From: Clostridia bacterium
GTDB taxonomy: Bacteria; Bacillota; Clostridia; UBA1381
Length of the DNA: 64,000 bases
Reading direction: 5' to 3'
NCBI GenBank assembly: GCA_017551095.1
Contig: JAFZMQ010000022.1
Location: 1 to 64,000, forward strand
Part shown: positions 2,858 to 17,639 of the stretch, in pieces
Numbering within the stretch: the stretch's first letter is position 1
How the letters are laid out: each line of letters begins with the position of its first letter
The notes under the pieces: model-generated
The model's database searches: none
Seen by the model: the letters and a program-made list of their open reading frames with translations, nothing else
What the model was told of the DNA's origin: nothing
Position numbers and translations under genes: made by a program

Positions 2858-5800
2858 ATGAAAAAACGCATTTTTTCACTTTTTGTGATTCTTTATATCC
2901 TGCTTCCTGTGGCGGTTATTCCTGTTCATGCGGCAATAGTTGGCAGTGGCACATGTGGTGATAACCTCACTTGGACGCTTAATGATAAGGGAACGCTCAC
3001 CATTAGCGGCACGGGGGATATGAAGGATTATAGTTACGATACTATGCCTTGGTACAGTTCGAGGTCATCAATTAAAACTGTAATTATTCAAAATGGAGTA
3101 ACAAGCATAGGTTCTGAGACGTTTTATAATTGCAGCAGCCTGACCAGTATCACAATTCCCGATAGTGTAACAAGTATAGGGAGTAGAGCATTTTCCAGTT
3201 GCACAGGCCTAACCAGTATCACCATCCCGGATAGCGTAACAAGCATAGGAAGTGGTGCGTTTTCCGGTTGCAACAAGCTTACCTCAATAAATGTTTCTGA
3301 AAACAATCAAAACTATTCATCGCAGGACGGAGTTTTGTTTAACAAAACTAAGATGGCACTTATATGCTGTCCGGGTGGCAAACAAGGCTCATATAGCATC
3401 CAAAACAGCGTAACAAGCATAGGGAATTATGCGTTTTCCGGTTGTAGCAACCTAACCAGTATCGCCATCCCGAACAGAGTAACAAGCATAGGTGATTGGG
3501 CGTTTGAGGGTTGCAGAGGTCTAACCAGTATCACCATTCCCAATAGCGTAACAAGTATAGGGAATTATGCGTTTTCTCGTTGTAGCATCCTTACCTCAAT
3601 CACAATCCCGGATAGCGTAACAAGCATAGGTGATTATGCGTTTTACGATTGCGGTAGCCTTACCAGTATCACAATTCCAAACAGCGTAACAAGTATAGGA
3701 AGTGGTGCGTTTTCCGGTTGCAGCGGTCTAACAAGTATCACATTACCATTTGGCAGTATTGGATATATATTTGGAACATCATCATATACGGGAAGTTATG
3801 AGGCAGATGGTTATTATATCCCGTCATCATTAAGAACAGTAAACATAACAAAAGCAACGCAAATTCCAGGTAGAGCATTTATGAGTTGCAGCAGCCTAAC
3901 CAGTATCACAATCCCGGATAGCGTAACAAGTATAGGAAGTGGTGCGTTTTACGGTTGCACAGGTCTAACCAGTATCACAATCCCGGATAGTGTAACAAGT
4001 ATAGGAAGTGCGTTTGAGGGTTGCAGCGGTCTAACAAGTATCACATTACCATTTGTTGGCAGTAGCATAAATTCAACAAATGTATTTGGATATATATTTG
4101 GAGAATATTCATATACGGAAAGTTATAAGGCAAATGGTTATTATATTCCGTCATCATTAAAAACAGTAAACATAACAAAGGCAACGCAAATTCCAGGTGG
4201 AGCATTTGATAGTTGCAGCAGTCTGACCAACATCACCATCCCGAACAGCGTAAAAAGCATAGAGGGTCGTGCGTTTGAGGGTTGCAGTAGCCTTACCAGT
4301 ATCACAATCCCAAACAGTGTAACAAGCATAGGGAATTATGCGTTTTATAGGTGTTATAACCTAACAAATATCACAATCCCCGGTAGCGTAACAAGCATAG
4401 GAAGGCATGCGTTTTCCAGTTGCACAGGTCTAACCAGTATCACCATCCCGAACAGTGTAACAAGCATAGGGGATAGTGTGTTTAGCAATTGTAGCAGCCT
4501 AACCAGTATCACCATCCCGAACAGAGTAACAAGCATAGGGGATTTTGCGTTTTCCAGTTGCAGAAGCCTGACCAGCATTACAATCGGTGACAGTGTAAAA
4601 AGCGTAGGGGACTATGCGTTTTCCTGGTGTAGCAGTCTTAAAAAGGTTTATTACTCAGGAATTTCTTCGCAGTGGAGTTATATATCAATAGGTTCAAGTA
4701 ATGAGTACCTTAAAAATGCGAAAATGTATTATTTATATACCATAACTTATACAGGCGAATATGAGGGAACGGATAAGGAATACCATCTAAATACCGTGAC
4801 TTTCCCTACTTTGCCCGAACTACCATACGGATATACATATAGCTTTAAAGTAAATGGTACAGAATGGGACGGAGTGGTACAGGGCGACACAACTGTTGTA
4901 GTCACAAAAACACCAATAAATTATACAGTAACCTATACAGGCGATTATATAGAAACACAGAGTGTTGCCTATAACACAAAAGCAAACTTGCCGAATGAAT
5001 ATGGTTACACATATACCTTTAAAGTAAATGGTGAAATATGGGACGGCGTTGTTAAAGGCGATACAACAGTTGCAGTCACCAAAACACCGATAAACTATAC
5101 TGTTACATACACAGGCGATTATGAAGGAACGGATAGTGCCGATTATTTAACAACAGTCACACTCCCAACACCGCCTGAAAACTACATTTACCGATTTACT
5201 GTAAACGGCTCGGCTTGGGACGGCGTCGTAAAAGGTGACACAACGGTTTTAGTGTCAAAGCTATGCGATTTAACAGAGCTTGACATAGCAAATATTGAAG
5301 ATGTGCAAAAAGACGAAGACAGCATTTACGGCAAATTCTATGGCAAATATTTCGTTCCGCAGGTGAGCGTTTCGGAAAATGCCGCATACTCCATATACCG
5401 TGATGAAAATTGCACACAAATTGTGCGGAATGTAACGCTTTCGCGTGGCGAAAATACATTTTACATAAAAGTAACGGCAGAAAGCGGTAGAATAAAGGTG
5501 TATAAGATTACGGTTGACAGAGATATACCGGAAAGCCTCGGTACGCTTTCATTTGTTCAGGCGATAAAGGATACTATGATATTTAAGCTTGACAGTAAGG
5601 TTGTAGGAAACCCGGAGATAACAATTCTTTTTGGAAAAACGCAGGATGTATTTAATGATCGTGAACTCTGTATTGAAAGAACGGCAACTATAAGCAGCGA
5701 CAAACAGAGCCTATACATTTCGGAATTATCGCCTGATGAGCAGTATTATTTTAAGGCGATTGCAAGGTATGATGATATTGAAACAGAAAGCTCGGTTGTA

Positions 5801-6559
5801 TTTGCGTACACGGCACTGTCAGGCGAGTGCTATGTTATTAGTGTATTATCCCCCGCAGGTGGCGTTATAAATCATGAAAAGGGGACTATTTCCGATTTGC
5901 GTGTTGCGAACAGGTTTAACGAGATTTTAATAGATGTTTTGGTAAGCCCAAAAGCGACATGGGATTTGTATTATGACAAAAAGGCAACAAAAATATGCGA
6001 AAACAGAACGCTCCCCCTTAACGCAGGTGAAGAAAAGACGGCATACATAAAGGTTACAGCAGAGGACGGAACAGAAAAGATTTACTCTATCAGCATTTAC
6101 AGGCAGACAAAGTCTAAAAAACCTGTAATATCGGTATGGGGCGGTATGGCGACCATTACTTCGGAAGATAATAAAAATATTTTCTACTCATTTAACGGAA
6201 CATATCCTACCGAATTTAGCGGAACGGCATATAGTGGTCCTTTTGAAGTGTCGGAGGGAACAGTAATCAGAGCCATAGCAAAGCAGGAGGGCATGGACGA
6301 ATACAGTGATGTTGCATCTTATACGGTTGATGAATTCGGGCTCATAGCATACGGTGATGTTAACGGTGACGGAGAGGTTACCGCCGCTGATAATGTGTTC
6401 CTGGCACGGCATTTGGCAGGTTGGAGAGGATTTGGCGAAATAAACACCGACACAGCTGATGTAAACTGCGACAAAAAGGTCAACGCCTTTGATAATATCG
6501 TTTTAGCACGGCACTTGGCGGGTTGGATCGGATATTTGGATTTGCCTTATGAAGAATAA
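2858..6559 (+). CDS. Secreted BspA-type leucine-rich-repeat protein with dockerin
   Basis: A 1233-residue exported protein starting with a signal peptide (MKKR, hydrophobic core, cleavage near VHA-AI). Residues ~78-600 are some twenty BspA/Treponema-type LRR_5 repeats (LTSITIPxSVTSIG). Three ~55-residue beta repeats follow (~629-798, [10 protein letters not shown]...[11 protein letters not shown]). Next come two cadherin-like beta-sandwich regions (~806-886 and ~995-1085) and a chitobiase C-terminal-like module (~1087-1158). Residues ~1167-1228 form a type I dockerin: two calcium loops ([12 protein letters not shown] and [12 protein letters not shown]), each followed by LARHLAGW. No catalytic domain is visible. 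Dockerins bind cohesins, so the protein is probably docked on a scaffoldin or surface cohesin encoded elsewhere. A nested larger duplication is visible at ~3730-3900 and ~4020-4240. Confidence 0.9.
3090..4660 (+). repeat. LRR_5 coding repeat array (~69-bp unit)
   Basis: About twenty in-frame ~23-codon repeats have strong DNA-level similarity (the phrase GTAACAAGCATAGG recurs), indicating ongoing intragenic duplication or homogenisation. Confidence 0.85.
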
Positions 6560-9704: not shown

Positions 9705-12700
9705 TTATTTCATATACGGCAAGGTTTCGTAGCCTTTCCAACCTGCTAAATGCCGAGCCAAAATGATATTGTCAAGGGCATTGACCTTTCCGTCACAGTT
9801 AACATCGGAGGTCACGGTGTTTATTTCACTAAATCCTTTCCAACCTGCTAAATGCCGTGCTAAAAATACTGTATCCGATGGCGTTGCAATGCCGTCGCCG
9901 TCAACATCTCCATAAAGAACAGGGTTGTAGAGGTCAACATCGCCTATTTCGTAGATTTCAACAATTTGATCGTCAATTACAAGTGCCATAGCGTAATATG
10001 CGTAATCAGCCGTTTTTTCTCCTGATAGTGCATCAGTCGCCCACTCATTCATCCCTCGGGCTTTTGCCCAAGCTATACTATGATCAGGAACGGCATTTTC
10101 TCTCCAAACGATTTTTCCTATATCGTTTGCAGTATAATTTGACAGACTGCCATCAGGCACTGTTGTGATTTCCCAATCGTTGAAGTAAGAGGTAAATAAC
10201 TTGCCTTGCGGATTTAATCTGTATTGGTCTTCTACATCAACAACTGTGTTGTAGGTGTAAATCAAACAATCGTCAGCTAAACGGAATGCCTCATAGTTTG
10301 ATATATCAACAGGACCGTCTGCTGTTGTGGGAATATCTATCATCTTAACCGTGTCAGAATCTACTCCGACTACAATACCTTGAATGAGACGATAACTTGC
10401 CGTTCCTGTGTATGAAGGCAATGATGAGCCTATATCCCACTTTGTAGGGCTGTTATCATAATATAAACCTGCTGGGCCGAATGCATTTGCAAGTGTTACT
10501 GTTCCGCCTCTGATAGTTGCCTTAGGAATCCAACGAATAGAATCTACTAAACCGTCATCGTCAACTGTATAGAAGAATGCGTCACCGCGGCTTCCGCCTA
10601 ATGTCGGATTTGATGACTTATAAGATGTTGCAACATCCAATGTTGTCTTCTTGCCGTCTATAACAACTTTGAGTTGATCAACTGTGTCGCCGTCTTCGTC
10701 AAGACCTTGTGACCAATCATTTGTATCCAAAACAGCAAACCGTGATCTTGAATTAAATGCAAATCCGGCATTTGTCAGAATTACGAAGGAGTAAACTGAT
10801 GTTCCTGTAATCTTACCGTAAGCTGCACCTGCATATTTTTCACCGTCTAATAGTTGACTAACTGACATACCCGAATACTGTCTGTAAGAAATCTTGTCAA
10901 CATCAATTATCTGCGTATTACTGTTTACGCCGATACTACCAATTCTTGATACTTCTGCTCTGTATTCTTCTTTTGTATATGCATTTATAGAAATATAAGT
11001 TGGTGTTTGATATACTAATGAAGTTATCTTACTGCTCTTTAAGGTGTATTCAACTACGCAGTCTTGAACCTCTGCATTTGGATGTTTATTAGCTGTTGCT
11101 ACAACTGTTGTCTTAACATCTTTAATGGTTTCATTTGCCCAAAGACCTGAAACACCTGCGGTTGTCTTTGCGTTCCTATAAACGTCTGTGTCTTTTACTT
11201 CATATGTCTTCTTTGTTCCGTCTGCAAGAACAAGAGTTACATCATAGTCGTCAATTTTGGCAACAATTGCATAGTTATGGATTTCTAACACCTCAGTATC
11301 GTCATACGAGAAGATTCTGCCAAAAGGATCAAGAAAAATCTTATTATAAACTGTTCCCATACAAAAACCCAAATCATACTTGTCAACAGCGGCATAATCA
11401 TTTCCGTCAACGGTAAAGCTATTATCCTCTATATCAATAGCCGTAACTTTTCCCGATATTACATTTCTTGTGGCGAGAATCTCGGTATCATAGTCGTTAC
11501 CTGAATACAAAGTCGGATAATTGTTAACAATTTTTGTCTTTATTGCTATTACATCATTAGGTTTTAGCTCTTTTAGCTGAATAGGATTGCCGTCAAGAGA
11601 AACGGTAAAATCAGGGTCAGAATCAGAAACGGTAATTTGATCGTATGAGGATAAATTACTCATAGAAGAGTTAAATTTAACTGTCGTAAAACCGTCTCGG
11701 TAGTTCACCGAAGAAACCTGACCGATATCATATGCTTCAACATAAATCTCATTGTATTTTGTTGCAGAGCCTGTTTTGTTGAGCCGTACGTTGCCGCGGA
11801 CAACTTGCATCACGTTGCCGATGGTGTAGGCAGAATAATACGGCTGAATTGTATCGTAAAAATGACCATTTATATATATATTTACAGACGAATCAAGCAA
11901 ATACTTAATAGAACCAAACTTGATACTATTGTCCCAAGAAGAAACAGATTCAAATGTATCTGCCGGAACTTCAACCGATTCGGCATTTGAATAAGTGATT
12001 CCGGATTCAGAAGGGTCTTCCATAATTTCGTAGATTTCAACTACCTGATCATCAATTACAAGTGCCATGGCATATTCTGCTTTTGAATTCGTATTCTTGC
12101 CCTTTATGCTTGAAACCTTTGATTGTTTAATACCACGCTCTGCTGCCCACTCGTTTGCACTTCCCGCCCAAAATGTCGGGTTTTCCTCAGTTGTAGTAGG
12201 AACAGAGGTTGTTGTCCATGCAGTCCAGCCAATATTTGAAATACTGTATCCGGTGGCAGCCGCAATTGCGGTTGTACCAACATTATAACCGGGTGTTTCG
12301 GTAATCTTCCAATCAGAAAAGTCGGAAGCAACCAATGTGCCTTGTGCTTTCAATCTGTCTTCAATATCAGGAGCTGTGTTGTAAGTGTAAATCAAACAAT
12401 CGTCAGCTAAACGGAATGCCTCATAGTTTGATATATCAACAGGACCGTCCGTTACGGTGGGCACATCTATCATCTTAACTGTGTTAGAATCTACTCCGAC
12501 TATGATACCTTTTACGAGGTTGTTTTTGTAATAATTTGTGTTATACAATGAGCTTCCCCATGTTGACGTATCATAATTCCAACCGAATGCATTTGCAAGT
12601 GTTACTGTTCCGTCTGTGATAGTTGACTTAGGAATCCAACGAATAGAATCTACTAAACCGTCATCATCAATCGTATAGAAGAATGCGTCACCGCGGCTTC

Positions 12701-13484
12701 CGCCTAATGTCCAGTTTGCCGACCTATATGCTGCGGAAACATTCAATGTTGTCTTTTTGCCGTCTACAACAACTTTGAGTTGGTCAACTGTGTCACCGTC
12801 TGCATCAAGACCTACTGTCCAGGCATTTGTATCCAAAACTGCAAACCGTGATTTTGAATTAAACAGATATCCGGCATTTGTCAAGATCACGAATGAATAA
12901 ATCGATGTTCCTGTAATCTTACCGAAACCTGCCCCTGCATATTTTTCGCCGTCTGCAAGTTGATCTACATCCATTCTCTTATAATCGCGATAAGAAGCCC
13001 AATCAACGTCAACGATATTGGTTGAGCTGTTTACGCCGATACTACCAATCCTTGATACTTCTGCTCTGTATTCACCCTTTGTCCAGATATTAGTATCAAT
13101 ATAGGTTGGCGTTTGGTACACTAATGAAGTAATCCTTCCGCTCTGCAAAGAATACTCGACAACACAGTCATGAGCTTCTGCATATTGATGCTGATCAGCT
13201 GTTGCTACAATGTAAGAATTAACATATCTAATGGTATCAACTGCCCAAAGACCTGCAACACCTGCGGTTGTCTTTGCGTTCATATAAACATCTGTGTCTT
13301 TTACTTCATATGTCTTATTTGTTCCGTCTGCAAGGACAAGTGTTACATCATAGTCGTCAATTTTGGCAACAATGGCATATTTTGCAGTTGTAATCTCCTC
13401 TTCCGTTGCAGCCAAGGGGACTGTCGTAATGCCCAGAACCATACAGAATATGATGTAAAGGCATAAAATTCGTTTTTTTATCAT
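9705..13484 (-). CDS. Giant internally duplicated secreted protein with dockerin
   Basis: Start chosen at 13484, where AGGAGG lies seven bases upstream and a signal peptide (MIKKRILCLYIIFCMVLG) begins; a longer frame reaches 13520 without an RBS. Of ~1259 residues, two homologous ~450-residue copies (about 33-486 and 736-1177) share YAIVAKIDDYDVTLVLADGT, GSRGDAFFYT, DDDGLVDSIRWIPK and ISNYEAFRLADDCLIYTYNT. A unique ~250-residue segment separates them. The C terminus (~1192-1259) is a type I dockerin (DVDGDGIATPSD, DVNCDGKVNALD, each before [10 protein letters not shown]), closely matching that of the LRR protein at 2858. The repeated domain is not one I can name. Aspartate-rich loops suggest calcium binding (inference). 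Probably a structural, cohesin-docked extracellular protein. Confidence 0.85.
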   Translation of the reverse strand: MIKKRILCLYIIFCMVLGITTVPLAATEEEITTAKYAIVAKIDDYDVTLVLADGTNKTYEVKDTDVYMNAKTTAGVAGLWAVDTIRYVNSYIVATADQHQYAEAHDCVVEYSLQSGRITSLVYQTPTYIDTNIWTKGEYRAEVSRIGSIGVNSSTNIVDVDWASYRDYKRMDVDQLADGEKYAGAGFGKITGTSIYSFVILTNAGYLFNSKSRFAVLDTNAWTVGLDADGDTVDQLKVVVDGKKTTLNVSAAYRSANWTLGGSRGDAFFYTIDDDGLVDSIRWIPKSTITDGTVTLANAFGWNYDTSTWGSSLYNTNYYKNNLVKGIIVGVDSNTVKMIDVPTVTDGPVDISNYEAFRLADDCLIYTYNTAPDIEDRLKAQGTLVASDFSDWKITETPGYNVGTTAIAAATGYSISNIGWTAWTTTSVPTTTEENPTFWAGSANEWAAERGIKQSKVSSIKGKNTNSKAEYAMALVIDDQVVEIYEIMEDPSESGITYSNAESVEVPADTFESVSSWDNSIKFGSIKYLLDSSVNIYINGHFYDTIQPYYSAYTIGNVMQVVRGNVRLNKTGSATKYNEIYVEAYDIGQVSSVNYRDGFTTVKFNSSMSNLSSYDQITVSDSDPDFTVSLDGNPIQLKELKPNDVIAIKTKIVNNYPTLYSGNDYDTEILATRNVISGKVTAIDIEDNSFTVDGNDYAAVDKYDLGFCMGTVYNKIFLDPFGRIFSYDDTEVLEIHNYAIVAKIDDYDVTLVLADGTKKTYEVKDTDVYRNAKTTAGVSGLWANETIKDVKTTVVATANKHPNAEVQDCVVEYTLKSSKITSLVYQTPTYISINAYTKEEYRAEVSRIGSIGVNSNTQIIDVDKISYRQYSGMSVSQLLDGEKYAGAAYGKITGTSVYSFVILTNAGFAFNSRSRFAVLDTNDWSQGLDEDGDTVDQLKVVIDGKKTTLDVATSYKSSNPTLGGSRGDAFFYTVDDDGLVDSIRWIPKATIRGGTVTLANAFGPAGLYYDNSPTKWDIGSSLPSYTGTASYRLIQGIVVGVDSDTVKMIDIPTTADGPVDISNYEAFRLADDCLIYTYNTVVDVEDQYRLNPQGKLFTSYFNDWEITTVPDGSLSNYTANDIGKIVWRENAVPDHSIAWAKARGMNEWATDALSGEKTADYAYYAMALVIDDQIVEIYEIGDVDLYNPVLYGDVDGDGIATPSDTVFLARHLAGWKGFSEINTVTSDVNCDGKVNALDNIILARHLAGWKGYETLPYMK
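9960..13390 (-). repeat. Large intragenic direct duplication (~1.3 kb copies)
   Basis: The copies, roughly 12030-13390 and 9960-11280, share long identical DNA tracts, for example around 10267-10315 and 12387-12450, so the duplication looks recent or homogenised. Confidence 0.8.
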
Positions 13485-13515
13485 CGCTTTCCTCCTAAAT
13501 ATTGTAATTTTGATC

Positions 13516-13544
13516 ATCATATCATATTTAACACTTTTTTACAA
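13516..13544 (-). promoter_or_regulatory. Promoter for the duplicated dockerin gene
   Basis: On the minus strand TTGTAA, 17 bp, TATGAT, ~32 bases before the chosen start. Confidence 0.65.
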
Positions 13545-13621: not shown

Positions 13622-13649
13622 TTGACAAATAGTAATAAAATGTTAAAAT
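13622..13649 (+). promoter_or_regulatory. Promoter of the flippase cassette
   Basis: TTGACA, 16-bp spacer, TAAAAT upstream of the four-gene run that ends at 17607. Confidence 0.75.
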
Positions 13650-13683
13650 AAATATATGGTTTGAATTTTTGGAGGCACGGAAG

Positions 13684-14325
13684 ATGCACAATTGGAGTTC
13701 GCTAAAAGCGTTTTTTGATGTTCTGAATGAAAAATCGAATTATGTTGTTCTCAGGAATTACGAGAATTTTGCGGATAGTCTATTAACAGATGAGCATCCG
13801 GATATTGACATTTTGTGTGACAATCGTGATGTCCTATTAAGTGTATCCAAGTCAGAGCCGAGGCATGAAAATGACAAAATACACAGAAAAATTTTGGTTG
13901 ATAATAAAGAAGTAGACCTTGATGTGCGTTATGTAGGCGATGGATATTATGATACAAAATGGGAGAGGGAGCTACTATCAAATCGTCGGTTATATAACGG
14001 CTTATGCTATGTTTTAACGGAAGAATACTACTATTACTCTCTTTTATATCATGCCCTGATACAGAAGTTCAAAATAAGCGACGATTATATATCACGATTA
14101 AAAAATATGGCGGAAAAATGCGGTATATCAGGCGACGAGGCACTTTCTATTGATACTTTGCAGAATTATATGAGAAAGCACGGATACAGTTTTACATATC
14201 CTGCTTTTGTGGGCGGTATTACTAATTTTAGGCGTGTTGACAAAGCTATGATTAAGAAAAATCCGCTTCGTATATGTGCCAGATTTTTATATAAAGTAAA
14301 AATACATCTGCGAAAAAGAAAATAA
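13684..14325 (+). CDS. Nucleotidyltransferase-fold-like protein of a polysaccharide cassette
   Basis: A protein of 213 residues starting at the ATG eight bases after GGAGG (13671-13675); a TTG at 13669 would put the Shine-Dalgarno inside the gene. Residues ~30-90 look like a minimal nucleotidyltransferase fold: LRNYENFADSLL, then HPDIDILCDN with a DxD pair, then VDLDVRYV supplying a third acidic position. The C-terminal half is helical, with a YYYYSLLYHALIQKFKIS segment and a very basic tail. First gene of a four-gene run ending with a Wzx-like flippase. A glycan-modification role is inferred from context and the substrate is unknown. Confidence 0.55.
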   Translation: MHNWSSLKAFFDVLNEKSNYVVLRNYENFADSLLTDEHPDIDILCDNRDVLLSVSKSEPRHENDKIHRKILVDNKEVDLDVRYVGDGYYDTKWERELLSNRRLYNGLCYVLTEEYYYYSLLYHALIQKFKISDDYISRLKNMAEKCGISGDEALSIDTLQNYMRKHGYSFTYPAFVGGITNFRRVDKAMIKKNPLRICARFLYKVKIHLRKRK

Positions 14326-14354
14326 TTGTAATTTACTATACAGGAGATTATAAT

Positions 14355-15203
14355 ATGGGCGAAAAAATAAGGGATTTACATGATATTTCCATAGGCGACG
14401 CATCATTGATGATAGAACTGAATGAGGGATATTCCGCTTCACAGGGGCGGCTTATTCATATACAAAACAAAAAATTCCGTTATCTTTTAACCGAACGCAA
14501 TTTTTATCAGCTCTCGTCAATGGTTATGAGAGCGTGGAGTGAATTTGACTTTCTTAAAAACAAAAAGAGAACAATAGCAAAAGATTTTCCGGTAAGAGAA
14601 AGTGTAAAGAATGAGTCAAACAATGCTTTTCGGGAATACCTAACATATATGGACAAGAGCGGGATAGGCTATCGCGTAATAGATGTACAGGACAAGATGA
14701 TAACCTTGCTGGTTGATAAGAAATCAAATAACAAGATTTTGCAAAAGGATATGAAGGAAATCCCCCATCCGTACGGAAAAGAGACGGGATATAGATTTCT
14801 GTACCAGATGACGCCGTTTAAGCTATACAAAAAACAGGATTATTACATAGAGGTTTATAATCAGCTTCCGTGCGGCAGTCTTACTGCAAAAACATGGATA
14901 CCGCTTGACCGGGCAATCCAACAACGTGCGTGGGGTGATTATGAGTTAAAAGACGGCATTAAATGGTGCGACGGGATATGCAGATATTTGTATCATTTAT
15001 GTTGGGCGATATTTAAGCATAATGGGTTTTCGCCATTTGAAATGCAGTATTTAAAAGAAAACAGAGAACTTTTAAAAACCGAAGAATTTATGCATTGTGC
15101 GTCGTTAGTTTTTTTCAGTTATACGGATAAGCTGATTGAGCATTTGTATAAAGGGGATTATTATGCAGTAATTCACGAATACTATTCGTTTATCGGATAT
15201 TGA
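14355..15203 (+). CDS. Unknown protein of the flippase cassette
   Basis: A 282-residue protein I cannot assign to a family. It has no signal peptide or membrane segment. The N-terminal ~75 residues form an apparent beta/alpha unit with NKKFRYLLTERNFYQLSSM. The middle has ITLLVDKKSNNKILQKD. The C-terminal half is aromatic-rich (IPLDRAIQQRAWGDYELKDG, CRYLYHLCWAIFKHNGFS), recalling the helical tail of the preceding nucleotidyltransferase-like protein. AGGAG lies nine bases before the ATG. It sits 29 bases after the preceding gene and 26 before the next, so co-transcription is likely. Confidence 0.7.
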   Translation: MGEKIRDLHDISIGDASLMIELNEGYSASQGRLIHIQNKKFRYLLTERNFYQLSSMVMRAWSEFDFLKNKKRTIAKDFPVRESVKNESNNAFREYLTYMDKSGIGYRVIDVQDKMITLLVDKKSNNKILQKDMKEIPHPYGKETGYRFLYQMTPFKLYKKQDYYIEVYNQLPCGSLTAKTWIPLDRAIQQRAWGDYELKDGIKWCDGICRYLYHLCWAIFKHNGFSPFEMQYLKENRELLKTEEFMHCASLVFFSYTDKLIEHLYKGDYYAVIHEYYSFIGY

Positions 15204-15229
15204 TAAAATAGGTTAAAAAGGAGCTAATT

Positions 15230-16030
15230 ATGAGCAATCCGGCGGTAATAAAGTTGCAGTCAGGTAAAATAGGTAAAAGTAAAGTATGGCTTGATGATAA
15301 TTTTGGTGAATCGGTGCATATCCATATAGATGATATGCGTATTGATTTAACCACAAATGAATTTAAAAAGCTCTACACGGACCTTTGCGATACTTTAAAC
15401 GCACTTGTGGATGTGGAAGGCTGTGATATACATGATATTGATCCCGTTTATCTCCAGGTTCTGCTATGGAGGTATCTTCCTAAATTGGTAGGCGTGTCTA
15501 TTGACAAAGTGAAATTGGGTGATATGCTTGCACCAAGGGGCGAAAAAATCCATAGATTGCCGGAATCTGACGGTGTAAAAGCATTGGAAGGTCTGTCAAA
15601 CGAAAATGAAGGTTACAGAAAATCGCATCACATCGGTCAAACCGACGGGGAGCGTATGCAAGACTCTCTTGACAGTATTAAGGCTAACGGATATCCCTTT
15701 AACAATCAATATATTATAATGTACGGGGACGATAATATAATACGGGATGGTCAGCATAGAGCGTCATGTCTGTATCACCTGTACGGAAATATTGAAGTGC
15801 CCGTAATGCGATTAAAAATAAAAGGTTACAAATCTCCAAATATACATAAAAACTATAATAATTGTATTCTTTGTCTTTATAGAAAATGCAGACAAACCCT
15901 GCCGAGCAAAATTAAACATTTTTCAATCAAAAGGGTATGTGCGGATTTTAAAAAGACGGCAAAAAGCGTTTTAAAAGGAAGAAAAGAATATACGGATACG
16001 AAAGTATTAAACATATTTAAGGCAAAGTAA
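15230..16030 (+). CDS. ParB/Srx-like domain protein of the flippase cassette
   Basis: A 266-residue protein. Residues ~143-192 contain NGYPFNNQYIIMYGDDNIIR, then DGQHRASCLYHLYGNIEVPV. This is the strand-turn-helix signature of the ParB/sulfiredoxin-like fold, including the DGxHR core. Such domains recur in capsule and cell-surface loci with uncertain enzymatic role. The N terminus (HIHIDDMRIDLTTNEF) and the strongly basic, Cys-containing C terminus (~205-266) are not recognised. AAGGAG precedes the ATG by seven bases. Chromosome-partition ParB is unlikely because the HTH and ParA are missing. Confidence 0.6.
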   Translation: MSNPAVIKLQSGKIGKSKVWLDDNFGESVHIHIDDMRIDLTTNEFKKLYTDLCDTLNALVDVEGCDIHDIDPVYLQVLLWRYLPKLVGVSIDKVKLGDMLAPRGEKIHRLPESDGVKALEGLSNENEGYRKSHHIGQTDGERMQDSLDSIKANGYPFNNQYIIMYGDDNIIRDGQHRASCLYHLYGNIEVPVMRLKIKGYKSPNIHKNYNNCILCLYRKCRQTLPSKIKHFSIKRVCADFKKTAKSVLKGRKEYTDTKVLNIFKAK

Positions 16031-16056
16031 AGTGCTATCAGGGGAAGGCATTTGTT

Positions 16057-17607
16057 ATGGTAAAAAAGTATTCCAGAACAAAAAATTCAATATTTAATAT
16101 CATTACAGGATTTGGTGGGCAAATAATCTATGCAGCACTAAATTTCGTTTGTAGAACTGTATTTATAAAGACGCTTGGAGCGGAGTATTTGGGTATAAAC
16201 GGCTTGTTTTCGGATATTCTTTCGCTCTTTTCTCTTGCAGAACTGGGATTTGATACTGCAATAAGTTTCAGATTGTATAAGCCGATTGCGGAAAATGATG
16301 AGGTCAAGATTCGGCAATATGTTAAAATGTTTCGTAATGTATACAAAGTCGTTGGCTTGGTAATAGTGTGCTGCGGACTTACCATGGTGCCGTTTTTGAG
16401 AATTTTCATTAAAGACTATGATAAATTAAGCGGACTGGGCATAAATGCCACATTCATTTTCATATTGTTCTTAACCCAGAATGCGTCATCATATTTGTTT
16501 TTGGCATACAGAAGTATTGTTATAACAGCACATCAAAAACAGTACCTGCTTAGTGTGGCGGGCTATGTGATAAACCTTGTGAACAGTATAGTAAAAGTAC
16601 TGGTGTTGATATTTACACATAGCTTTATTGCGTATATCATTACCATTACAGCACAAATCATTTTGCAAAGCCTTATAAATGCTGCAATTGCAACAAAAGC
16701 ATACCCACAGTATTTCATAAAAGAAAAAACAAAACTAAGCAAGGAAGAGAAGGTTGAGTTATATAAAGATTGTGGTGCACTGCTTGTTTATAAAATCAAT
16801 AATGTTGTAATAAAGGCAACGGATAACTTGGTTTTGAGCAGTTTTGTCGGTCTTACAATAGTAGGGCTATATTCTAACTATCTCATGCTTTTTAATGCAA
16901 TACACGGTGTTCTTCATATCATGTTCAGGTCTGTTAAAGCAAGTATGGGAGATTTGTTTGCCTCTGACGAAATAGAAAAAAAGCATAGCTTTTTTGAAAT
17001 TATGAATTTTATCACTATATTACTATACGGCACGGCAGCGGTTGGGATCGCAATTACAAGTAATGAGTTGATTGATTGCTGGATAGGTGATAAATATGTC
17101 GTTCCGCAGCCGCTTCCCATGCTGATTGGATTGGAGCTGTTATTTACAGGTCTGAAACTCAATCTGGCACAGATAAGGAATGTAAGCGGAGTGTTCAAGC
17201 AAATGTGGTATAGGCCTGTAATAGGCTCAATTATAAATGTTGTTTCATCTATAATTTTGGTGCAATACTGGGGAATTTCCGGTGTTATCACCGGTACGGT
17301 TTTAGCCGCCATATTTGCAAATTTCATGGTTGACCCGAGAGTTATTTATAAGTACAGTTTTCAGGGTGTTAAACCGGTCAAACGGTATTATTCAAAAAAC
17401 ATTCTGTTTATAATAATATTGATGTTGATATGTGCTGTGGATTTTGTAATTTGTGAGAATCTTGTAACGGGTTACGGCATTATATCATTGGCTATACATA
17501 TGCTCATTTGTGCAGTGTCCGTACCCGCAACATTTGTTCTTATATTCTGGAAAACTCACGAATGTGTCTATATAAGGCAAAAGGTGAGATCAATCATAAG
17601 AATTTAA
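16057..17607 (+). CDS. Polysaccharide flippase (Wzx-like, MOP superfamily)
   Basis: An integral membrane protein of 516 residues with about 12-14 predicted hydrophobic segments. The N terminus (SIFNIITGFGGQIIYAALNFVCR, abbreviated to its key RTVFIKTLGAEYLGINGLF continuation) is typical of Gram-positive capsule/teichoic O-antigen-type flippases, as is the AELGFDTAISFRLYKPI segment. The family moves lipid-linked oligosaccharide across the cytoplasmic membrane. It is last in a cassette lacking visible glycosyltransferases, so the substrate must be assembled by enzymes encoded elsewhere. The terminator at 17615 closes the operon. Confidence 0.88.
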   Translation: MVKKYSRTKNSIFNIITGFGGQIIYAALNFVCRTVFIKTLGAEYLGINGLFSDILSLFSLAELGFDTAISFRLYKPIAENDEVKIRQYVKMFRNVYKVVGLVIVCCGLTMVPFLRIFIKDYDKLSGLGINATFIFILFLTQNASSYLFLAYRSIVITAHQKQYLLSVAGYVINLVNSIVKVLVLIFTHSFIAYIITITAQIILQSLINAAIATKAYPQYFIKEKTKLSKEEKVELYKDCGALLVYKINNVVIKATDNLVLSSFVGLTIVGLYSNYLMLFNAIHGVLHIMFRSVKASMGDLFASDEIEKKHSFFEIMNFITILLYGTAAVGIAITSNELIDCWIGDKYVVPQPLPMLIGLELLFTGLKLNLAQIRNVSGVFKQMWYRPVIGSIINVVSSIILVQYWGISGVITGTVLAAIFANFMVDPRVIYKYSFQGVKPVKRYYSKNILFIIILMLICAVDFVICENLVTGYGIISLAIHMLICAVSVPATFVLIFWKTHECVYIRQKVRSIIRI

Positions 17608-17614
17608 GAGAATT

Positions 17615-17639
17615 AAAAGGACTGTTCACAGTCCTTTTT
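17615..17639 (+). terminator. Terminator of the flippase cassette
   Basis: AAAAGGACTG, TTCA loop, CAGTCCTTTT, T-rich tail. Confidence 0.9.

Follow-up and report, generated by a model that had tools for sequence, protein, structure and literature searches.

The 64,000-nucleotide stretch of a Clostridia bacterium genome analysed here (contig JAFZMQ010000022.1; the window) carries a cassette of four genes, g1 to g4 (Table 1). Their products are an apparent nucleotidyltransferase (NTase)-like protein, a fusion of a small domain with a degenerate NTase-like domain, a predicted ParB/sulfiredoxin (Srx)-fold protein that begins with a related small domain, and a Wzx-type flippase. The four open reading frames (ORFs) encode proteins of 213, 282, 266 and 516 amino acids (aa) on the forward strand, are separated by gaps of 29, 26 and 26 nt, and have a G+C content of 35-37%. 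The co-directional four-gene arrangement claimed in an earlier annotation made without database searches (the sequence-only reading) was confirmed, as all ORFs are intact and spaced by 26-29 nt; its statement that the cassette lacks a glycosyltransferase, a polymerase and a priming enzyme also held, since none was found within the four genes. The ATG at 13684 was confirmed as the start of g1, the mechanical ORF start being a TTG at 13669. Sequences resembling ribosome-binding sites are clear 5' of g1, g2 and g3 and weaker 5' of g4.

Domain composition of g1, g2 and g3

No usable match for g1, g2 or g3 was obtained in Pfam, NCBIfam, PHROGs or PADLOC, and g1 gave no Pfam match of any kind. Three aspartates of g1 (D40, D42 and D80) are invariant in all four rows of its alignment. 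A hidden Markov model (HMM) of the g1 family finds NTases of the order Campylobacterales, two at 2e-8 and 7e-8 and a third at 2.2e-5, and the comparison of the g1 profile with the profile of these NTases gave a probability of 91%. Judged by its sequence and its structural model, g1 looks like an NTase-fold enzyme.

The g2 product, listed by the sequence-only reading as an unknown aromatic-rich protein, proved to be a small domain of about 70 aa followed by an NTase-like domain that lacks the DxD motif, and this fusion is the most useful correction to that reading. The HMM of the Campylobacterales-order NTases, built without g2, finds the C-terminal domain at 4.7e-14. Where the relatives read GKDIDILI, g2 reads KMITLLVD, and the region of the third aspartate is also changed. 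The corresponding domain of a second copy in the same genome, on contig C24, is likewise altered. The replaced DxD and the altered C24 copy make it probable, on the evidence of the alignments, that the second NTase is a pseudoenzyme here. No homology was seen when g1 was compared directly with the C-terminal domain of g2 (probability 0.55%), and the kinship of the two therefore rests on the Campylobacterales-order NTases as a bridge.

The N-terminal domain of g2 is homologous to the N-terminus of g3 (hhalign of alignment A11 against A12, five versus five sequences, probability 93%, E 2.8e-7). The small domain has no Pfam match. We use HIH domain as its working name, after the HxH motif of the g3 type or the IHIQ motif of the g2 type, the latter being called HIQ.

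For g3, no Pfam family was found at E values up to 1, PF02195 included. In the structural search, 22 of the 24 matches with Z of at least 4.0 belong to the ParB/Srx superfamily by title. The top match, 5k5d, has Z 8.9 (root-mean-square deviation, rmsd, 4.2; 99 aligned) and the second ParB match Z 8.0; SbnI (6nr6, Z 5.2), Srx and the free serine kinase 5x0k (Z 4.0, rmsd 3.3, 77 aligned) are also among the matches. The remaining two, 1vk1 and 2hwj, have titles without a function, and the next row is MutL at Z 2.2. According to its model, g3 is a protein with a ParB/sulfiredoxin-type fold, in line with its earlier description as a DGQHR ParB/Srx-like protein. Neither the HTH DNA-binding domain nor the C-terminal dimer domain of canonical ParB proteins was detected in g3 by Pfam, and the outer parts of the model are unreliable.

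A paired small domain accompanies NTases in distant loci

Thirteen distinct loci (the window, C24 and others given L numbers) were scanned for the HIH domain. The domain is present in nine of them, namely the window, C24, L014, L018, L022, L017, L064, L065 and L075. In each of the nine it occurs twice, with one or more NTases encoded by the same genes or by their neighbours. This pairing of a small domain with an NTase, kept across distant bacteria, an archaeon and viral sequences, is the most interesting result of the study. Because the loci were retrieved by different parts (L014, L018 and L022 through the ParB/Srx part, L064 and L065 through the HIH domain, L075 through the NTase), the co-occurrence of the other parts was not built into the sample. 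The A10 HMM was trained on six of the nine domain-bearing loci, with L064, L065 and L075 outside the training set. Copies or near-copies (L063, L066, L067-L074, L026, L032-L034) were excluded from the counts, and L056 and L057 were examined by HMM scan alone.

L014 comes from a metagenome-assembled genome titled Campylobacterales, L018 from the same genome and L022 from another genome of that order. All three share one gene order: a 70-71-aa protein starting with MGEKI, a 217-218-aa NTase (GKDIDIL) and a 241-244-aa ParB/Srx protein starting with MSNPAV. A glycosyltransferase-9-like gene follows, separated from the triple by an ORF6N-domain gene in L018 and adjoining it in the other two loci, the PF01075 match having been tested in L014 alone and L018 and L022 being assigned by likeness. 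The triple-bearing locus L022 also carries a C5-epimerase-like gene (L022:4855-5808; PF06662, 3.7e-49). A Haladaptatus plasmid (L017:14935-16153) encodes a 69-aa HIH protein and a 340-aa HIH-NTase fusion; the pair and the NTase adjoin genes for a fructose-bisphosphate aldolase and an FGGY kinase, not a glycan locus. On the viral contigs L064 and L065, an HIQ-type protein of 69-72 aa and an NTase of 210 aa are accompanied by a third protein, which ends in an HIH domain and whose front is weakly glycosyltransferase-8-like (0.023, tested for L064). In the viral locus L075, the HIQ-type protein and the NTase occur with an HIH protein of 72 aa that is free.

The A12 HMM detects proteins that were not used to train it, namely the 69-aa Haladaptatus protein (1.4e-14) and, by their ends, the viral glycosyltransferase-like proteins (2e-15 and 1e-16). 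Among the small proteins of the Campylobacterales-order loci it detects a single one, at 1e-3, which indicates that the HIQ and HIH types are far apart. The HIH domain is not in L013, L023, L025 and L027. L013 (L. plantarum) has the ParB/Srx part and, by the HMMs, neither an HIH domain nor an NTase, and L023, L025 and L027 have NTase-like proteins without the domain. In L023:8954-10497, a distant ParB/Srx protein (DGLHRA) adjoins a possible NTase (GSDIDIF) in a glycan locus with an ABC exporter.

The individual searches returned few matches. g2 and g3 were each matched in one of 101 genomes, their own. The g3 profile matched one of 391 genomes in one set and two of 398 in another; the second match of the latter set (L012) was rejected, being a 60-residue match that spans a TAA and lies among unrelated neighbours. 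In the order of G850, four of 248 genomes were matched, G850 counted: G850 and G912 are strong, G990 is weak and was retained as a distant ParB protein adjoining a possible NTase, and G1093 was rejected. The g1 profile matched two of 95 genomes, and its four-row version one of 348. Scanning of genome contigs with the g3 profile returned a single locus (L014) out of 461 stretches, and the viral scan with it gave no match among 45 stretches. Phage records had no match to g3 or to the L027 protein; among plasmid records, one L. plantarum and one Haladaptatus record were matched, and none matched g1 or the NTase of the same-genus genome G004. Sequence searches of the PDB with profiles returned no rows for the ParB/Srx profile and four chance-level rows for each of two NTase profiles.

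The soluble proteins of the cassette do belong together, as had been supposed: homologues of the g2 and g3 domains are adjacent in the four strong loci obtained from the g2 and g3 searches (C24, L014, L018 and L022). As regards conservation of the whole four-gene neighbourhood, this linkage of the g2 and g3 domains is kept, and the exact four-gene form was encountered nowhere else in the genomes searched. Polysaccharide loci surround the C24 and Campylobacterales-order copies. That context bears on the idea that the cassette is a toxin-antitoxin or anti-phage system composed of an NTase and a ParB-like protein. Some toxins have an NTase fold, among them MenT1, one of the structural matches listed for g1, and g3 has a weak PADLOC match to a CARF model (1e-3, 30 residues); with no PADLOC match for g1, g2 or g4, and with relatives placed in glycan loci beside glycosyltransferases and flippases, we consider a defensive role very improbable.

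The flippase and a second copy within a polysaccharide locus

The g4 product exceeds the curated cut-off of PF01943 (30.1 versus 28.2 bits), which upholds its designation as a Wzx-like flippase, and is 40% identical (207/522) to the flippase of a polysaccharide locus in G004. In a search of 41 genomes, 19 were matched, its own genome counted. Neighbourhoods were read for seven of the 18 other genomes, and in all seven the flippase lies among polysaccharide genes, most of which are presumptively named from their sequences. Within its own genome, PF01943 detects g4 and also a SpoVB-like protein, which suggests that this is a spore-forming lineage of the Firmicutes. On contig C4 (about 17102-17212), a match of 37 residues marks the beginning of a second Wzx gene, cut at the end of the stretch, so that g4 is not the only Wzx of the genome. 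This gene start (L061:358-1611) adjoins a glycosyltransferase-4-like gene, the names being given by likeness to L053. In the window, g4 lies outside any polysaccharide locus, and neither the cassette nor the 11 neighbouring proteins include a glycosyltransferase.

The second copy of the g1-g3 domains lies inside a large polysaccharide locus on contig C24 and has a different layout. A 78-aa protein (MGEKI start, GTG codon) is 35-38% identical to the N-terminus of g2; in a 457-aa protein, a g3-like N-terminal part (28-31%) is joined to a g2-like C-terminal part (24-25%); and a 531-aa protein combines a g1-like N-terminal part (30%) with a squalene-cyclase-like C-terminal part. The domain order and fusions differ from those of the cassette, which shows that g2 consists of two domains. 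The 531-aa NTase/squalene-hopene-cyclase fusion (L006:15561-17153) matches PF13243 at 2.4e-5 and TIGR01787 at 3.2e-6, both under the cut-off. Between 72.8 and 116 kb, C24 carries two priming-type sugar transferases, glycosyltransferases, EpsG (PF14897), an O-antigen-polymerase-like protein and an ABC exporter, some of these names being presumptive. No Wzx-sized hydrophobic protein was present among the ORFs of at least 100 aa in this locus, other flippase families not having been searched. The absence of such a protein would allow g4 to serve the C24 locus, which is a candidate source of the glycan. Elsewhere on C24, outside the polysaccharide locus, tandem PF14907 nucleotidyltransferases of 392 and 394 aa are encoded (L036:8220-10596).

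Since its parts are found elsewhere inside larger glycan loci, the bare cassette looks, by sequence comparison, like a satellite of a polysaccharide locus. The sequence-only reading named, as a condition that would refute it, a cassette that is a fragment of a larger locus in relatives; by that condition the same placement partly refutes it, and the linkage of the soluble proteins is the part of it that stands. The cassette could also be what is left of a polysaccharide locus, stranded, partly decayed and of little function. The location of the relatives' flippase in polysaccharide loci in all seven neighbourhoods read, the lost DxD of g2 and the occurrence of g2 or g3 in none of 100 other relatives are in keeping with such decay. 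Nevertheless, the four ORFs are intact and closely spaced, the ribosome-binding sites of g1-g3 are clear, and the C24 copy of the g2 domain is altered too, so that the loss is not confined to the cassette. We judge this decay improbable.

Transcription signals and neighbouring genes

A sigma-70-like promoter with a TG element precedes g1, and an inverted repeat follows g4 (Table 1). The counts of such signals in the region are not in excess of those in shuffled sequences: 29 promoter-like sites were found versus 35.0 (standard deviation, sd, 5.6), and 6 terminator-like sites versus 7.6 (sd 2.5). The hairpin at 17615-17638 is reported by the terminator scan in the - orientation only. Thus, the proposal that the cassette has its own promoter and terminator is favoured by the best promoter site of the region and by a hairpin with a T-run, and weakened by the site counts and by the orientation of the scanned hairpin.

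Table 1. Features of the g1-g4 cassette, with positions in the window
Feature	Position	Strand	Remarks
Sigma-70-like promoter, TTGACA-16-TAAAAT with TG	13622..13649	+	11/12, top site of region
g1, apparent NTase-fold protein, D40, D42, D80	13684..14325	+	Family HMM matches; no Pfam match
g2, HIQ domain (~1-71) and NTase-like domain (~114-282) without DxD	14355..15203	+	
g3, HIH domain (~1-66) and predicted ParB/Srx-fold domain, DGQHR 173-177	15230..16030	+	
g4, Wzx-type oligosaccharide flippase	16057..17607	+	PF01943, 4.4e-7
Inverted repeat, probable terminator	17615..17638	+	Core then TTTTTG on + strand

No glycan enzyme was found by Pfam among the 11 neighbouring proteins, which include a class II tRNA synthetase, a LUD-domain protein, a thymidylate kinase, dockerin proteins and a surface-layer homology (SLH) protein. 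The upstream neighbour is a dockerin-bearing protein on the opposite strand and the SLH protein lies downstream, as does a gene that, from its sequence, we take to be LepA-like. The 1271-aa dockerin-bearing protein at 9705-13520 of the window has two similar halves, with YAIVAKIDDYDVTLVLADGT in both, and a second dockerin protein, with BspA-type repeats, is found at 2858-6559.

Proposed function of the cassette

Kinase-like proteins recur next to the related NTases. In G004, a choline-kinase-like gene (PF01633 1.2e-6, just below the cut-off) precedes a g1-type NTase and a flippase. On the viral contig L027, a kinase-like domain is fused 5' of a g1-type NTase (PF00069 4.7e-5 and Bud32 7.9e-6, both under the cut-off; L027:4089-5498), and near it lie genes that we presume, from their sequences, to be glycosyltransferase-like and terminase-like. 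A weak likeness to kinases (PF00069 0.015 in L064 and 0.0021 in L065) is shown by a protein with a GT2 fusion that is encoded a few genes further downstream in these two contigs. The occurrence of related NTases beside or fused to kinase-like proteins favours a kinase role for g3, and by analogy with SerK, FKRP and the pseudomycoidin enzymes described below, g3 may be a kinase and g1 a transferase.

We tentatively propose that a kinase and NTase module, joined by the paired domains, decorates a lipid-linked glycan that is flipped by g4. The enzymes would probably be kept in contact by the HIQ and HIH domains at the N-termini of g2 and g3. With a nucleotide as donor, g3 would phosphorylate a sugar or another group on a lipid-linked oligosaccharide. 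That phosphate would be the site to or through which g1, with its three aspartates, next transfers a nucleotidyl, glycosyl or phospho-alcohol group, and the degenerate NTase domain of g2 could act as a partner or an acceptor-binding subunit. The decorated lipid-linked unit would finally be flipped by g4, its backbone being supplied by another locus, for which C24 is a candidate. The sequence data establish the genes, the homologies of their domains, the conservation of the linkage, the presence of two domain copies in the loci scanned and the glycan-locus context, whereas docking, the kinase role of g3, the chemistry of g1 and the locus that supplies the glycan are inferred.

Several observations weigh against this proposal. 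The models of g1 and g3 are poor (mean predicted local distance difference test, pLDDT, 42.1 and 46.6, respectively), and the best 50 structural matches listed for g1 have Z of 5.1 to 4.2, within the range of a common arrangement. We take these listed matches to be NTase-like, and they comprise polymerase beta/X, CCA-adding and tRNA-processing enzymes, MenT1, ANT(2''), Cid1 and small alarmone synthetases. By BLASTP, g1 and the L014 NTase are not alike (E 0.18). g1 also lacks the hG[GS] motif of classical NTases, reading VVLRN at that place; its earlier description as a DxD NTase-like protein is borne out by the three aspartates and the family HMM and not by this motif. The DxD has been lost from g2, and no catalytic residue of the ParB/Srx kinases was mapped onto g3. 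Every kinase match lies below its curated cut-off, and the downstream neighbour in L075 has no Pfam kinase match. ParB/Srx relatives occur without the domain pair (L013 and L023), and the second HIH domain of L075 is free, which indicates that a ParB/Srx partner is not required. Furthermore, an ABC exporter is encoded within C24 itself, and C4 holds the beginning of a second Wzx gene, the assembly (1.37 Mb, 41 contigs) being 80.66% complete. The supposition that the glycan is made elsewhere is plausible in view of a C24 locus without a Wzx-sized protein, and weakened by that exporter and by the second Wzx gene.

In an alternative scheme, g3 would phosphorylate a free small molecule, which g1 would activate or transfer as a phospho-alcohol, and the product would be added to the lipid-linked glycan. 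There are precedents in the parts of the two reports available: SerK, annotated as a ParB protein, phosphorylates free serine (PMC5120207), and FKRP, which has the NTase fold and three catalytic aspartates, transfers ribitol phosphate (PMC6965139); three aspartates are also kept in g1. Such metabolite activation appears unlikely, the cassette containing no nucleotide-sugar or CDP-alcohol synthetase. It is less likely still that g3, without catalysing a reaction itself, acts as a nucleotide-dependent switch or scaffold and sets the timing of assembly or flipping. Proteins of the ParB fold frequently serve as CTP or ATP switches, as set out in part of a survey of the fold (PMC12704722), and the best fold matches of g3 are ParB proteins (Z 8.9 and 8.0); however, kinase-like proteins stand beside or are fused to related NTases that have no ParB protein, and g3 has no DNA-binding domain by Pfam.

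Beyond the kinase and NTase module itself, a wider reading may be offered, with reserve. The HIQ/HIH pair, two homologous domains of 60-70 aa, could form an undescribed module that accompanies an NTase-fold enzyme and serves as an exchangeable docking device. Its second half would stand alone or be joined to a ParB/Srx kinase, to a glycosyltransferase or to the NTase itself, and the module would assemble glycan-phosphate tailoring complexes in bacteria, archaea and viruses. In the boldest form of this idea, the small proteins would themselves be the carriers on which the group is built. If the docking-device reading is true, g3, as an enzyme of the ParB/Srx fold, would phosphorylate surface glycans, a role that we did not find described; a linkage of ParB, NTase and polysaccharide was likewise not found in the titles and abstract openings that the literature searches listed, and the terms polysaccharide, nucleotidyltransferase and flippase are absent from the main text, as available, of the ParB fold survey (PMC12704722). 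Should g3 be a kinase, a part in the building of surface glycans would be added to the roles of the ParB/Srx fold. With the present analysis, four anonymous genes become a testable assembly, marked by a small domain without a Pfam match that recurs as a pair beside an NTase in very different hosts.

Comparison with known systems

The g4 flippase resembles the Wzx flippases of polysaccharide loci in its PF01943 match and in its identity to the G004 flippase. It differs from them in lying outside any polysaccharide locus in the window. For the NTase part, the viral relatives match PF14907 (NTP_transf_5), a family of uncharacterised nucleotidyltransferases, around the DxD at 2.6e-5 to 6.7e-4. The best domain-pair relative reaches 24.4 bits against a cut-off of 31.2, all relatives are below it, and g1 and g2 have no match; two full members of PF14907 are present in the G004 polysaccharide locus. 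LicD and FKRP are NTase-fold proteins that decorate glycans, with three aspartates as in g1 (for FKRP, in the part of PMC6965139 available). g1 differs from them in having no Pfam match and no hG[GS] motif, as defined in that part of the same report.

SerK and SbnI are ParB/Srx-fold kinases, according to the available parts of PMC5120207 and PMC12704722, and share the predicted fold of g3. g3 differs from both in its N-terminal HIH domain and DGQHR motif and in having relatives with partner NTases and a glycan context.

The biosynthesis of the lasso peptide pseudomycoidin involves the kinase PsmK and then the NTase-like protein PsmN. PsmN is needed for the hexoses on the phosphorylated serine, and whether it adds them itself is left open in the portion of the report available (PMC9266682). 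The substrate there is a peptide, and that portion does not mention a ParB/Srx fold, paired small domains or a flippase. Likened by description alone, PsmK and PsmN nonetheless offer the same succession of a kinase and an NTase-like protein, acting in turn, that is proposed here for the cassette.

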